A stretch of DNA of 64,000 nt, taken from IMG/VR virus record IMGVR_UViG_3300030060_002972, positions 19,748 through 83,747 of that record; one strand, given 5' to 3'. Origin of the DNA: a virus. The notes below the pieces were generated by a model. It saw only the letters and a list, made by a program, of their open reading frames with translations. It did no database searches and was not told the DNA's origin. A program made the position numbers and the translations under genes. Positions 11,663-62,477 of the stretch are shown piece by piece (within the stretch, counting starts at the first letter, position 1; each line of letters starts with the position of its first letter).

Positions 11663-11689
11663 AATTCACTCTCCTTGAGGACTCGTTTA

Positions 11690-11723
11690 TAACTTGTACC
11701 TCACTACGTGAGGGTACAAGTTA
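11690..11723 (-). repeat. TAC-triloop hairpin
   Basis: Arms TAACTTGTACC / GGTACAAGTTA (11 bp, perfect), then TCAC / GTGA around loop TAC with a bulged G: the same architecture as 11401-11434 with different outer arm sequence. It lies 28 nt upstream of the 71-aa gene start. Confidence 0.75.
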
Positions 11724-11748
11724 AAAGGGGGACAGGTTTTTCCATTTC

Positions 11749-11773
11749 CAAGTATTTACTACGTAAATACTTG
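11749..11773 (-). repeat. TAC-triloop hairpin
   Basis: Perfect 11-bp arms CAAGTATTTAC / GTAAATACTTG with loop TAC. Fourth member of the unit A hairpin family and the most upstream one in the leftward leader. Confidence 0.75.
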
Positions 11774-11806
11774 TTTGTACCCTCTCTCCACCACTAGAAA
11801 AAACAT

Positions 11807-11861
11807 CCCCCCCATGTGCCCACCCACACCCCGTGTATATATATATATTGCTAGGTTTTTT
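11807..11861 (-). other. Conserved C-rich/TA-repeat block with G-quadruplex pattern
   Basis: On the minus strand 11832-11807 reads as four G-runs (4, 3, 3 and 7 G) with loops of 3, 1 and 5 nt, which fits a G-quadruplex. A TA dinucleotide repeat and a T-run preceded by AGG follow on the plus strand. Unit B has a matching block at 53433-53488. Confidence 0.6.
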
Positions 11862-12002
11862 CCCTGTTATGTGTGTTTGTATACCCATGTTTACTAGTTA
11901 TATACCCACAATCACTAGTTTTATCCCCACTATTACCCAGTTTTTACCCACAATCTAGTATAATATATAATGTAATAATATCAGTTAGTTACGTCACGGC
12001 AC

Positions 12003-12032
12003 TTGACATGCCCACTGTGTACAGTGTATATA
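12003..12032 (+). promoter_or_regulatory. Rightward sigma70-like promoter with operator in spacer
   Basis: TTGACA at 12003-12008 and TATATA at 12027-12032, spacer 18 nt. The spacer contains the palindrome CACTGTGTACAGTG (12013-12026), exactly between the two boxes, a typical repressor position. Confidence 0.55.
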
Positions 12033-12113
12033 CATGTATATAGTACAAGTGTATACATAATATATACTTTGCAGTATATATTATAGTATAATCTACGTAG
12101 TATATACTAGTAC

Positions 12114-12142
12114 TTGACATTGCAAGTCCTGAGCTATATACA
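12114..12142 (+). promoter_or_regulatory. Rightward sigma70-like promoter
   Basis: TTGACA at 12114-12119 and TATACA at 12137-12142, spacer 17 nt. A transcript would start only a few bases before the ATG at 12155, giving a very short leader. The context CACTTGACA recurs at the other candidate promoters in the window. Confidence 0.5.
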
Positions 12143-12154
12143 TATAAAGGGCAC

Positions 12155-12394
12155 ATGACTGACCACAACTATAACAAACTACGTATGTATACATATAAAT
12201 GTGCTAGTACTTATGATTTTAAATTACAAGATGCAGAAGATATACTCCATGATGCCCTGTTAGATTTTATAGAATCAGGGGTTGACATTACAAAGCTAAT
12301 ATGGAAGTATATAGGAAAGCACAGAGAACGTAGACATAGAGAAGGCAAACGTCAGATTAGCATGTCACACTTTGAAAACAAGGGGGAAGTATGA
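12155..12394 (+). CDS. Small sigma-region-2-like protein
   Basis: A 79-aa protein. The stretch QDAEDILHDALLDFIESG looks like the DAEDLxQExFL helix of sigma70/ECF region 2, but region 4 is missing and the rest is a basic tail. As the first rightward gene, immediately behind two promoters, it might modulate late transcription or be a remnant of a sigma factor or anti-host regulator. The similarity is short, so this stays tentative. Its stop overlaps the next start (ATGA). No counterpart in unit B. Confidence 0.55.
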   Translation: MTDHNYNKLRMYTYKCASTYDFKLQDAEDILHDALLDFIESGVDITKLIWKYIGKHRERRHREGKRQISMSHFENKGEV

Positions 12395-28977: not shown

Positions 28978-31188
28978 ATGGGAAGATTAACAGGTATAAA
29001 TTTAGGTCCACTTTCAATTAAATTTGATAGAGACAAAACAGCACAGCGTAAAAGTGATAGATTCAAAGCGCAAGATATTGTATCCAAACTTACTAGGGAT
29101 GCATTAAAAGGTGTTAATACTGATAGTACCAATAATATAATACGTAAAGGTATTGCAGATTTAGAATCAGGTAGTGATAAAATTATTAATAGTAAAAGAG
29201 ATTTGGGTACAAGTACCCTAACTACTAGTGGATTAGAAGGTGCTAATATTAAAGGTAGCACTACTTTAAGTGATGATGTTTTAACTCAAGCCAAAGAAGA
29301 CTCTGGAGGTTTTGTAGACGAAGCATCTAAGTTAGCCGTAGAAACTCACATAAAAAAATTAACTGATTTTAATAAAAATATTACTGAAAAAGAAAGAGTA
29401 GTAGCAGAAAATATAGACAATGTTATAAATCACCCGTCTGTAGGCGGCAGTGTTAAAACAATATTAGGCAATGAAAATATTACTGATACACAAAAAGTAG
29501 ATTACATATATGGATTAATAAATGATTTAGCATCTATTAAACCACAGAGTGAGAGAAGTAAAACTAGATTACAAGAAGCAGATAAAGCCTTAAATACCAC
29601 GTTAAAAAATAAAACTGTTCAAGATACATTTTTAGCGTTTAAACCAGCTGCAGGTGGTGGTTTCCAATTTGAAGCAAGTGATGGTTCTGCTATTACTTTC
29701 GGTAGTGATGAAAGGACGCCTTTACCTGGCATAGGTATGGGTGCCTATACTCCAGATGTAGCAGCTAGTCATACTTATATTGATAACAAAAGTTTGAAGT
29801 TAGATGAAGATTATCATTTTTTGGATAACACTGTTAGAGTTGCAGTGCCTGGCGACCCTACTGTAATAGAAACTAAAGATGACGGTACTCAAATAACATC
29901 ATCAGTAGAAGATTATATAGATTTTGATGGTCTAACATATAGTGCGTTATATCCTAAATATTTACGTACTAAATATGATGACAATTATACTGTAGAAGAT
30001 TTTAATAATGATGTTAGTCAATATATGAAAAGTCAAATTTTTGGCGGGTCTAGTGCAGATTATGATGACGAGTTAGCTAATACTATTGATGAGGCTATCG
30101 GTAACAGTATGGGTCAACAGCTGTATGACCAATTAGCATCTTTTGATGCAAATGCTAAAATAGGAGCATATAATAAATACAAAGAAGACGCTGGTGTAGG
30201 AGGTGGACTTGAAGCCTTAAACCAAATTAGGACAAAAGACGCTGAACGTATTACAGAAGATGCATTTTTCAGAATGTATGAAAAAGAACAAGAAGAAATG
30301 TACCGTGCAGGTTCAACCTATAGCTCGTATATGAAAGAACACAGAGTAGCATCACAAGATAAATTTTTACGTGCAGCATCTAGTCAATTTAGTGGATATA
30401 GACAAAGATTTAATGACATACTTAATAGATACGGAGATGATGACGGTAGTTTACACGACCAGCTTAGCAAAAAACTAGGTTATGACACAGAAGAATATTT
30501 TGAACATTTATTATTAAACGGAGATTTATCACAAATTCAAAACACCTTAATACAAATAGGTAGATTCTTAGAATTAGGTGATAATGAAAATGCTGATATG
30601 ATAAAATATATTATTGGTGATACAACTACATTTGGTAATTTTGTAAAACTTAGAGATAAAATCTACACAGATGATGCAAATACAATAAACCCAAACATAT
30701 CTGGTATGAAAGCCATGTTTGGCAACTTTGCTTCACTAAATAGAAGTCTTAATTTTTCTGGTGACGAAGTAATATTTGAAGATGTTAGACAAGAAATTAA
30801 AGGTGATAAGAAAACTTTGTTAGATGCTTTGTATAAAGAAGTAACTACAAATAGTAAACTAGGTAATTTAATTAGTGCTGTAGAAGAATCTTACACTCAA
30901 TCTGAGGGTAACGCATTTACTATAGGTGGTGCTGATGAGGTAGATGCACAAGATGCAGATGTATTAGCGGGACAAATTGCAGAGATAGATACAGAAACTA
31001 GTGAACTTAACGCTTCTAGTACAGAAGTAGCGTCTGTTGTTAACGCACTGTTACCAGATTTAGCTAGTGCTGGTATAGATGTAGATACATACTTAGAAGC
31101 TTTATTGGAAGATATGAAATATGTTGCAAGAGACAGAGCAAAATTTAAACGAGATATAATTAATCAATTAAACTTTGATTTAGGATAG
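28978..31188 (+). CDS. Large internal virion protein candidate
   Basis: A 736-aa, charged, largely helical protein (MGRLTGINLGPLSIKFD). It contains no enzyme motif I can name. Position before the 2,150-aa gene parallels T7 gp15/gp16. It carries one GGGTAC-AA-GTACCC palindrome in its coding sequence (29205-29218). Confidence 0.6.
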   Translation: MGRLTGINLGPLSIKFDRDKTAQRKSDRFKAQDIVSKLTRDALKGVNTDSTNNIIRKGIADLESGSDKIINSKRDLGTSTLTTSGLEGANIKGSTTLSDDVLTQAKEDSGGFVDEASKLAVETHIKKLTDFNKNITEKERVVAENIDNVINHPSVGGSVKTILGNENITDTQKVDYIYGLINDLASIKPQSERSKTRLQEADKALNTTLKNKTVQDTFLAFKPAAGGGFQFEASDGSAITFGSDERTPLPGIGMGAYTPDVAASHTYIDNKSLKLDEDYHFLDNTVRVAVPGDPTVIETKDDGTQITSSVEDYIDFDGLTYSALYPKYLRTKYDDNYTVEDFNNDVSQYMKSQIFGGSSADYDDELANTIDEAIGNSMGQQLYDQLASFDANAKIGAYNKYKEDAGVGGGLEALNQIRTKDAERITEDAFFRMYEKEQEEMYRAGSTYSSYMKEHRVASQDKFLRAASSQFSGYRQRFNDILNRYGDDDGSLHDQLSKKLGYDTEEYFEHLLLNGDLSQIQNTLIQIGRFLELGDNENADMIKYIIGDTTTFGNFVKLRDKIYTDDANTINPNISGMKAMFGNFASLNRSLNFSGDEVIFEDVRQEIKGDKKTLLDALYKEVTTNSKLGNLISAVEESYTQSEGNAFTIGGADEVDAQDADVLAGQIAEIDTETSELNASSTEVASVVNALLPDLASAGIDVDTYLEALLEDMKYVARDRAKFKRDIINQLNFDLG
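29205..29218. promoter_or_regulatory. GGGTAC palindrome (inside a gene)
   Basis: Perfect GGGTAC-AA-GTACCC; the leftmost copy in the window, inside the 736-aa virion gene. Confidence 0.7.
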
Positions 31189-47843: not shown

Positions 47844-47857
47844 GGGTACCAGTACCC
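47844..47857. promoter_or_regulatory. GGGTAC palindrome
   Basis: Perfect GGGTAC-CA-GTACCC, abutting the Shine-Dalgarno site of the 60-aa gene that starts at 47831. Confidence 0.8.
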
Positions 47858-49502: not shown

Positions 49503-49516
49503 GGGTATGTGTACCC
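49503..49516. promoter_or_regulatory. GGGTAC palindrome, one mismatch
   Basis: GGGTATGTGTACCC, just upstream of AAGGAGG of the gene starting at 49490; it also overlaps the stop of the previous gene. Confidence 0.65.
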
Positions 49517-50560: not shown

Positions 50561-50658
50561 AAGTCTTCTCCTTTGGGTACAGGTACCCTGTGGCTAGAGA
50601 TTGGATTTGCTCGTACGATGCATCTATTCTCTCTATTTAATACAGCTATGGATTCCAT
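50557..50658 (-). CDS. Possible 33-aa leader peptide
   Basis: Frame MESIAVLNRENRCIVRANP spans the palindrome at 50575 and ends as ATGA into the 68-aa gene. No good ribosome binding site; it may be only a leader. Confidence 0.3.
   Translation of the reverse strand: MESIAVLNRENRCIVRANPISSHRVPVPKGEDL
50575..50588. promoter_or_regulatory. GGGTAC palindrome
   Basis: Perfect GGGTAC-AG-GTACCC directly upstream of the Shine-Dalgarno site of the gene starting at 50560. Confidence 0.8.
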
Positions 50659-52137: not shown

Positions 52138-52162
52138 TGCGTCACCTCACAGAATAAATTTC

Positions 52163-52176
52163 GGGTACAAGTACCC
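52163..52176. promoter_or_regulatory. GGGTAC palindrome
   Basis: Perfect GGGTAC-AA-GTACCC in the leader of the first leftward gene (start 52137). Confidence 0.8.
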
Positions 52177-52437
52177 AATAAGCCGGCACTTGACACGATG
52201 GGATTACAAGTATAAACTACTAGTGACAACCACCTAGTTAATAAATACATAAGTGCTAGTACACACGATGAGTTAATACAAGTAATCATAAATCCTATTA
52301 TAACATCTATGTTCATAAAGTCAATACACAAATAATAATTACATTTCCTGTACACATCTTAAGTTTATTTTTGTACCCTCTTTGTACCTTGTTATTTTTT
52401 CCCTGTTAAAAAGTTATTATTGTAAAAGTTATTTTTT

Positions 52438-52451
52438 GGGTACGTGTACCC
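52438..52451. promoter_or_regulatory. GGGTAC palindrome
   Basis: Perfect GGGTAC-GT-GTACCC, 20 nt upstream of the -35 box of the rightward promoter at 52472. Confidence 0.8.
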
Positions 52452-52471
52452 TAATCTTTTTCTTAGTTCTA

Positions 52472-52499
52472 TTTACTTAATCCGTTTTGATGATATAAT
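52472..52499 (+). promoter_or_regulatory. Rightward sigma70-like promoter
   Basis: TTTACT at 52472-52477 and TATAAT at 52494-52499, spacer 16 nt, in front of the gene starting at 52545. Confidence 0.6.
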
Positions 52500-52519
52500 G
52501 CTTTTATTATGTTTATTAA

Positions 52520-52531
52520 GTGTATCGGTGG
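52520..52531 (+). repeat. Left arm of inverted repeat around the orphan gene
   Basis: GTGTATCGGTGG in the 5' leader, adjacent to the Shine-Dalgarno region; its exact reverse complement is at 53267-53278 behind the stop codon. Confidence 0.75.
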
Positions 52532-52544
52532 TAAGGAAAAAAGT

Positions 52545-53237
52545 ATGGCTAAAGTAAAAGCGGGTACTAGTACCCAAACCACTAAATTAAATTCAAGGGC
52601 TGATTATATCAGTAACTATAAGGCGGAGATGGTAAACGGGATTATCAATAATTATAATTCCGCAAATCAATGCCTAGAGGATGCATTAAAGCACCGTATT
52701 GCTGTTGCACGTATTCTAGTAATCAATGAAAAAGAATATGATGTAATTGATGACAAAAAAGTTAAAGCAAACTTTAAGAAGTCGTGGCAGTTCGGCGCTA
52801 GCAATCCAGAAAAACTGAATGATAAAGCGCTAGAAAATTGGAATAAGAATTTTAAGAAATATATCAAGTCTTATAATTTCTTGAATGCTTGTTTCAAGCT
52901 ACGTAAATGGTTAACGGATGACGGCTTGGATATTGACCGTAAAAGGATTAAACAAGCTATGTTGTCTCCGCAAACTATTGCTAATATGACGGGCTCCAGA
53001 ACCTTAGGCGACGAGTTAGGCAAAAAAGTAGAGGGTCAAACCACTACTAAAGTTAAAGGTCCTAAAAAAGTTGACTATCAAAAACAGGTTGAAGAGTTTA
53101 AGCAACTTATAGAAAAAGGAATTAGTTCCGATGATGCCGATGGTATCGATGTTGATGGAGTTAAAATGATGCTATCTAGTATTCAAAACTTAATCAATAA
53201 ACGTGGAGTTAATTTTGTTACTTCAGTAATTAATTAA
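52545..53237 (+). CDS. Orphan 230-aa protein, candidate regulator
   Basis: Start set at ATG 52545 (MAKVKAGTSTQTTKLNSRAD) after TAAGGA; the in-frame ATG at 52509 has no ribosome binding site. Helical and Lys/Asn-rich (about 20-140), then a linker with VKGPKK and a helical end. No HTH or enzyme motif recognised. It stands alone between the leftward operon and the late genes, has its own promoter, has a palindrome 20 nt upstream of that promoter and another 17 nt inside the gene, and is flanked by a 12-bp inverted repeat. Codon choice looks less AT-biased than its neighbours. Absent from unit A. Confidence 0.7.
   Translation: MAKVKAGTSTQTTKLNSRADYISNYKAEMVNGIINNYNSANQCLEDALKHRIAVARILVINEKEYDVIDDKKVKANFKKSWQFGASNPEKLNDKALENWNKNFKKYIKSYNFLNACFKLRKWLTDDGLDIDRKRIKQAMLSPQTIANMTGSRTLGDELGKKVEGQTTTKVKGPKKVDYQKQVEEFKQLIEKGISSDDADGIDVDGVKMMLSSIQNLINKRGVNFVTSVIN
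52562..52575. promoter_or_regulatory. GGGTAC palindrome (start of orphan gene)
   Basis: Perfect GGGTAC-TA-GTACCC covering codons 6-11 of the orphan gene. Confidence 0.75.
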
Positions 53238-53266
53238 ATAAACATAAAAATCAAATCAAATAAAAT

Positions 53267-53278
53267 CCACCGATACAC
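53267..53278 (+). repeat. Right arm of inverted repeat around the orphan gene
   Basis: CCACCGATACAC, 29 nt behind the stop codon, exact reverse complement of 52520-52531. Confidence 0.75.
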
Positions 53279-53432
53279 ACACAGAGAATTATATTTTTTG
53301 TAATCATTTTTTAACTAATTAATTTTTATACAATCTTCTTTTAAGTTCAAAACTTATGATCAAGAGTAATATTAAACAGTATTAAAAACATGTTTCTTTT
53401 TTCTTGGTCAAATTTTTTCTGTTGCCAGCTGA

Positions 53433-53488
53433 CCCCCCGTGGGCGACCACCCACCCCCGTCATATATATAAATATACATAGGGTTTTT
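53433..53488 (-). other. Conserved C-rich/TA-repeat block (unit B)
   Basis: C-runs of 6, 2, 3 and 5 with CCACCCACCCCCGT, then a TATA repeat and TAGGGTTTTT, in the same order as 11807-11861 of unit A. On the minus strand the G-runs almost fit a quadruplex, the weak point being one GG run. Confidence 0.55.
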
Positions 53489-53518
53489 ATTCATCTACCC
53501 ATTTTTACCCAAAAATTA

Positions 53519-53532
53519 AGGTACATGTACCC
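53519..53532. promoter_or_regulatory. GGGTAC palindrome, one mismatch
   Basis: AGGTACATGTACCC upstream of the late promoter of unit B. Confidence 0.6.
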
Positions 53533-53595
53533 AACTATAATATGTAATGATTACAGGTACTTACAAATCCCCCACTAGTTACCCAAAAATAACAC

Positions 53596-53625
53596 TTGAC
53601 TTATGCAAATTTCTTACTGTATTAT
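53596..53625 (+). promoter_or_regulatory. Rightward sigma70-like promoter for late genes
   Basis: TTGACT at 53596-53601 and TATTAT at 53620-53625, spacer 18 nt, about 65 nt upstream of the TerS-like gene. The box context CACTTGAC matches the unit A promoters. Confidence 0.5.
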
Positions 53626-53691
53626 TATAAAGCCTATATTAATTGGTGTAATTACTTGACAAATTGATTTTGGTACATTAGGAGGCACTTA

Positions 53692-62062: not shown

Positions 62063-62464
62063 ATGGCAAACGCAATATACCCAGCAGCTAAAGATTCGTT
62101 TCTTAAAGGTGAAATAGATTTAATAGATGATACAATTAAAATTGCTCTGGTAGATACAGGTACTTATACCTATAATGCAGCACATGATTTTTATAATGAT
62201 TTGTCTGGTGTTATCGGTACACCAGTAGCATTAGGTAGTAAGACTGTATCATCAGGGGTATTTGATGCAGCAGATGCAACATTTACCACACCATCATCAG
62301 GTACATCTGTAGAAGCATTAATTATCTACAAAGATACAGGTAATACAGCTACAAGTAATTTAATTGCATACATTGATACAGGAACAGGATTACCATTTAC
62401 AACTAACGGAGCAGATGTAGATATAGTCTTTGATTCAGGTAGTAACAAAATTTTTGCATTATAG
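62063..62464 (+). CDS. Small beta-rich structural protein
   Basis: A 133-aa near copy of 20628-21029 (MANAIYPAAKDSFLKGEIDL), AGGAGG upstream. Its stop codon touches the palindrome at 62464. Confidence 0.65.
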   Translation: MANAIYPAAKDSFLKGEIDLIDDTIKIALVDTGTYTYNAAHDFYNDLSGVIGTPVALGSKTVSSGVFDAADATFTTPSSGTSVEALIIYKDTGNTATSNLIAYIDTGTGLPFTTNGADVDIVFDSGSNKIFAL

Positions 62465-62477
62465 GGTACACGTACCC
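62464..62477. promoter_or_regulatory. GGGTAC palindrome
   Basis: Perfect GGGTAC-AC-GTACCC between two late genes, immediately upstream of GAGGAG of the gene at 62489, the same layout as in the leftward operon. Confidence 0.8.

Follow-up and report, generated by a model that had tools for sequence, protein, structure and literature searches.

The 230-aa gene in the control region of this phage DNA appears to belong to a regulator module, a reading to which we assign a probability of roughly 55%. Comparison of related phages shows that the ends of its predicted mRNA are selected to pair, in a helix whose closing point adjoins the Shine-Dalgarno (SD) sequence on its 5' side. Added to this, we propose that translation of the mRNA probably limits itself and, from the co-variation of genes and sites, that the encoded protein most likely recognises a set of palindromes. 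Long-range pairing between the ends of bacterial or phage mRNAs is known from few cases, mostly toxins and icaR. Here, the comparison shows that selection has kept end pairing throughout a phage group, in all nine genes at the locus and with many compensatory changes. End-pairing mRNAs as such are already known; in this case, one is combined with a regulator and a system of dispersed sites. The arrangement is real, conserved and unexpected, and its mechanism is in part inferred.

The window, a stretch of 64,000 nucleotides, stems from a virus record of 83,747 bases in which two related phage genomes are joined head to tail. In both, the replication genes are encoded on the minus strand and the structural ones on the plus strand, and a control region separates the two groups. 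The 230-aa gene is present in the control region of unit B only and absent from the matching position in unit A, as stated in a first-pass annotation of the same DNA, which had described the gene as interrupting a region that is continuous in unit A. The structural genes shared by the units of the record (window 1-64000; L003 1-19747) have 72-82% nucleotide identity and the record ends show no terminal overlap; the record may be a true heterodimer or the product of a mixed assembly. Among named phages, even the nearest are distant, with annotated phages matching the large terminase at about 25% identity only. Further phage relatives were collected via the small-terminase-like gene, for whose protein a contig scan of genomes found no cellular copies.

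Nine related phages carry a gene in this slot, in either orientation and from three sequence families, while the slot is without a gene of these families in L039, L043, L046, L047, L050 and unit A. A close relative of the 230-aa gene is found in L002 (62% identity) and distant relatives in L008 and L020, all with position and orientation as in the window. The slot genes on the opposite strand encode 186-187 aa in L010, L011/L012 and L016, and 240 aa in L018 and L019. Overall, the slot proteins have about 187-272 aa and are all basic (pI 9.3-9.8; 9.5 for the 230-aa protein). A profile comparison of the three protein families revealed no significant similarity; a motif common to the slot families, S-x-NFL...L..YVD...G...S..TIxNM, is suggestive by eye only. 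The description of the gene as an orphan is correct for annotated databases, as the 230-aa protein had no INPHARED match, nothing above Pfam cut-offs and nothing significant in PHROGs. Within the phage group it is not, with three relatives in its own family and nine phages with a slot gene. An Rfam search gave no known relative. The structure prediction that had been suggested as a check produced an all-helical AF2 model with a mean pLDDT of 60 (about 80 for the core, 71-160); with this model, which is of low confidence, Foldseek found no match in PDB or BFVD. The model of the L010-type protein (pLDDT 48) was of too low a quality to be used.

Table 1. Features of the control regions, palindromes and palindrome families (positions in the window)
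Feature	Position	Strand	Remark
Unit A control region	about 11670-12390		
Unit B control region	52138-53691		holds 230-aa gene
Regulator-like gene, 230 aa	52545..53237	+	ORF; relatives L002, L008, L020
Predicted sigma-70-like promoter of 230-aa gene, TTTACT-16-TATAAT, TG extended	52472..52499	+	consensus scan only
Predicted sigma-70-like promoter towards early genes, TTGACT-16-TATAAT, TG extended	52297..52324	-	consensus scan only
Leader, open in frame with gene from ATG 52509	52509..52544	+	possible near-leaderless second start
5' arm of end-pairing helix, GTGTATCGGTGG	52520..52531	+	exact complement of 3' arm
Shine-Dalgarno (SD) AAGGA	52533..52537	+	from sequence
3' arm of end-pairing helix, CCACCGATACAC, 29 nt past stop	53267..53278	+	exact complement of 5' arm
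Palindrome	47844..47857	.	abuts SD of early gene (minus strand)
Palindrome, one mismatch	49503..49516	.	abuts SD of early gene (minus strand)
Palindrome	50575..50588	.	1 nt before SD of early gene (minus strand)
Palindrome	52163..52176	.	before SD of first early gene (minus strand)
Palindrome GGGTACGTGTACCC	52438..52451	.	upstream of 230-aa gene's promoter
Palindrome GGGTACTAGTACCC	52562..52575	.	at codons 6-11 of 230-aa gene; also in L002
Palindrome, one mismatch	53519..53532	.	upstream of small-terminase-like gene
Palindrome	62464..62477	.	abuts SD of structural-region gene (plus strand)
Palindrome family GGGTACNNGTACCC			window phage, L002
Palindrome family CGGGTNNNNNACCCG			L008, L020
Palindrome family GCGGGANNNTCCCGC			L010, L011/L012, L016
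Palindrome family GTCGGGANNNTCCCGAC			L018
Palindrome family GTCGGTANNNTACCGAC			L019; read from L019 locus

It had been noted before that the leader segment GTGTATCGGTGG is exactly complementary to CCACCGATACAC behind the stop, and we confirmed the 12-nt match and its coordinates. Taken alone, such an inverted repeat has a chance of about 0.014 (dinucleotide shuffles, 80 x 100 nt search), and in a single sequence it is therefore weak evidence; it is the homologs that make the repeat decisive. A search for the gene with its repeat in other phages, again an earlier suggestion, revealed that the homologs do not lack it: all nine slot genes have complementary arms at the two corresponding places, one directly 5' of the SD and the other in the 3'UTR, 12-33 nt after the stop. 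The arms vary in sequence among the phages (GTGTATCGGTGG, TGTGGAGTTGG, GGTGGAACTATTA, AGTTAGCACTAA, GTGAATAAGTTAG, GTGAGTAAGTTAGG, TAAGTAGTCGGT, ATGGAGTCGGT), with one bulged base in the GTGAGTAAGTTAGG arm of L010, and give helices of 11-14 bp. Among the base pairs of four alignable phage pairs, 35 are unchanged, 11 have changed on both sides, 1 has changed via G-U and 2 are broken. The mean energy of the duplex between leader and 3'UTR is -22.5 kcal/mol for own partners vs -14.1 kcal/mol for swapped ones, and the true assignment is the best by energy sum among 362,880 permutations, a count that is no formal probability because phages of one lineage are not independent. Outside the slot genes, a repeat of 10 nt or more with the geometry of the arms was found once in 4,185 start/stop combinations from the loci and the window, and a later background scan of seven additional loci yielded one A/T-only match. 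When the full mRNAs were folded, the predicted probability that a sampled arm base pairs with the 3'UTR was at least 0.85 in eight genes; the exception was L010, where two bases at the bulge reached about 0.5 and the other sampled arm bases 1.0. The presence of arms in every slot gene, their compensatory changes, the preference for own partners and the rarity of such repeats in the background together indicate that the mRNA ends pair. The compensatory changes across nine phages give strong support to the suggestion that they could do so. A chance match, for which the modest single-sequence value could still speak, is practically negligible in view of this recurrence at matching places, the compensatory changes and the one background match.

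The 230-aa gene has its own TATAAT promoter, as described before, with the TATAAT at 52494-52499, a TTTACT 16 nt upstream of it and a TG before it. The 5' arm ends 1 nt before the AAGGA at 52533-52537, so that the helix abuts the SD without including it. The idea that the pairing would cover the ribosome binding site was therefore roughly right, in that the helix adjoins the SD, while the SD itself does not lie inside it. In L011, L018 and L019, the 5' arm begins 5-6 nt after the -10 element, and the 5' end of the RNA itself is thus probably in the helix. The 3' arm lies directly before an intrinsic terminator in the L010-L019 types; no clear intrinsic terminator was seen after the 3' arm in the window's clade. 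Initiation at the in-frame ATG 52509 would give a protein of 242 instead of 230 aa. Seven of the nine slot genes have an upstream ATG or GTG, similarly placed in each, from which an open frame runs through the leader into the gene (the distances are all multiples of three, in frame by definition of the count), and the two L018-type genes are without an upstream in-frame start. A second, near-leaderless start, which the helix would directly affect, is therefore possible.

The position of the arms inside the predicted transcript, their place relative to SD and stop, which is kept on either strand, and the tolerance of a G-U pair and a bulge favour an action at the RNA level. The gene is present in some relatives, absent in others and found in either orientation, as might be expected of a DNA element, that is, a transposon or an invertible cassette bounded by the repeats. 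However, an element of this kind would require either end sequences in common or a recombinase. The arms differ between close relatives and are not one common terminal sequence, they sit between promoter and terminator with the promoter outside, they track the SD and stop of the gene, and no recombinase was recognised at the locus. We consider a DNA element very improbable, and the proposal of the first-pass annotation that the gene is an inserted element is also at odds with arms that follow the orientation of the gene.

How could pairing of the ends affect the mRNA? We propose that, on the nascent RNA, ribosomes could load while the 3' arm is still absent. Once the 3'UTR has been made, the ends would fold back into a helix of 11-14 bp (a 'panhandle') directly upstream of the SD, which would hinder re-initiation on finished mRNAs and thereby limit the amount of protein made per transcript. 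In the icaR mRNA of Staphylococcus aureus, a UCCCCUG motif in the 3'UTR pairs with the SD itself in its own leader (PMC3868564). The 3'UTR of the slot regulator likewise pairs with its own leader, here next to the SD; unlike in icaR, the helix is 11-14 bp long, abuts the SD, differs in sequence in every phage and is kept by compensatory change (PMC3868564). A long-distance 5'-3' interaction is also found in the hok and aapA type I toxin mRNAs, of which the full-length form folds back by its ends near the start (PMC6733600). As in the slot genes, two mRNA ends fold together next to the start site, and these mRNAs provide a precedent for translation that depends on the 3' end (PMC6733600). Whereas hok and aapA encode small toxins with an antisense RNA (PMC6733600), the slot genes encode basic proteins of the sizes given above; an assignment to the type I toxin mRNAs was rejected because these proteins are larger and basic and not small hydrophobic toxins of a few dozen residues. 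A literature search, limited in reach, found no phage mRNA with such a panhandle.

The main rival to hindered re-initiation is that the ends pair to protect the mRNA from 5'-end-dependent decay, or to help translation by keeping the SD open or bringing the stop codon near the start. The probable pairing of the 5' end itself in L011, L018 and L019, the SD that stays unpaired next to the helix and the short palindromes that early genes also have 0-2 nt before their SDs are all consistent with this. Yet the bacterial 5'-3' end pairings of icaR, hok and aapA reduce translation (PMC3868564, PMC6733600), and we regard protection or help as a serious but rather unlikely explanation.

With regard to the palindromes, the GGGTAC palindromes reported upstream of the gene and at its codons 6-11 were found at 52438 and 52562, and the window contains eleven matches with at most two mismatches vs 0.96 expected. 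Palindromic matches within the portal gene (58467 and relatives) were taken as coincidences of GTVP codons. Each gene-bearing phage has one palindrome family, which is repeated 3-8 times per genome, with most copies in the early region. In every clade a copy lies ahead of the regulator's own promoter, and others precede the first early gene or occupy gaps between early genes. Four palindrome patterns are each exclusive to their own gene family in the ten related records scanned in full and the window's record, with the exception of one GGGTACNNGTACCC inside a unit A coding sequence at 29205. The six relatives without a slot gene (unit A, and the five listed above, whose loci are 7-8 kb long) have no repeated palindrome with 6-base arms. 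The regulators of L018 and L019 are 88% identical, with 30 differences, and an identical symmetric base change is present at all four of their syntenic palindromes.

As gene family and palindrome family change together, a trans-acting reader seems to co-evolve with the sites, and the slot gene is the obvious candidate. The slot protein is thus most likely a regulator that reads clade-specific palindromes. This basic helical protein would recognise the sites scattered among the early genes as well as the one ahead of its own promoter and, most likely as an operator or stoperator protein that binds DNA, would repress or time both the early genes and its own expression. The earlier designation as an autoregulated master regulator gains support by inference from the palindrome upstream of its promoter in every clade and from the joint change of the families, with binding itself standing as a prediction. 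Alternatively, the protein may act on RNA and regulate translation instead of repressing at the DNA level, and the palindromes may be hairpins of the early mRNAs next to the SDs; the end pairing would be unchanged by this. In line with such a role, 12 palindromes sit 0-2 nt before an SD, and between the predicted early promoter and the palindrome before the first early gene there are more than 100 nt. On the other hand, the palindrome upstream of the regulator's promoter lies outside the predicted mRNA in every clade, and the mismatches of the imperfect L008 and L020 sites are A-C rather than G-U when read on the strand of the early mRNAs. We favour recognition as DNA and consider an RNA-acting protein rather unlikely.

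A comparable system is found in the cluster A mycobacteriophages, whose stoperators are asymmetric, mostly in one orientation, many, dispersed and mostly away from promoters (PMC6550527). As with the cluster A repressor, the sites are dispersed, their consensus changes with the protein and one lies upstream of the regulator gene, with the slot gene as the inferred reader; unlike the stoperators, they are near-perfect palindromes, 3-8 per genome (PMC6550527). No lysogeny genes were recognised here, unlike in cluster A phages.

Going further, we tentatively raise the possibility of an undescribed phage control module: a fast-diverging slot, occupied in either orientation by one of three families without detectable homology, each with a private mRNA clasp and palindrome set, in which protein would come mainly from nascent transcripts, capping the dose per transcription event. 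The end pairing makes the open question of translation control by prokaryotic 3'UTRs directly testable by simple reporter swaps, and the L018/L019 pair, with its closely similar regulators and matched palindrome change, offers a compact way to map how the protein reads its sites.

A few observations concern the surroundings of the slot. L068 (1-541) contains the 3' part of another, distinct slot gene that shows the same layout of stop, candidate 3' arm CCAAACTCCATACC, terminator and own palindrome TCGGGANNNTCCCGA; a search for the missing 5' half of this gene found nothing. About half of the contigs found via the small-terminase-like gene begin 250-1000 bases upstream of it, in the control region (for example L005, L007, L009, L014, L040 and L041), pointing to a genome end or to a hypervariable region that breaks assemblies. 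A conserved ORF of 77-98 aa (..CEDILHDAC..KYRERRHREGKR..), present in L008 (9754-10020) and most relatives, extends up to or into the beginning of the small-terminase-like gene, and was not seen before 53692 in unit B of the window, nor in L002. Finally, in many of these phages the slot is separated from the structural genes by a C-rich tract (CCCCCCGTGGGCGACCACCCACCCCCG or a variant of it), which is located at 53430-53460 and 11805-11840 in the window.
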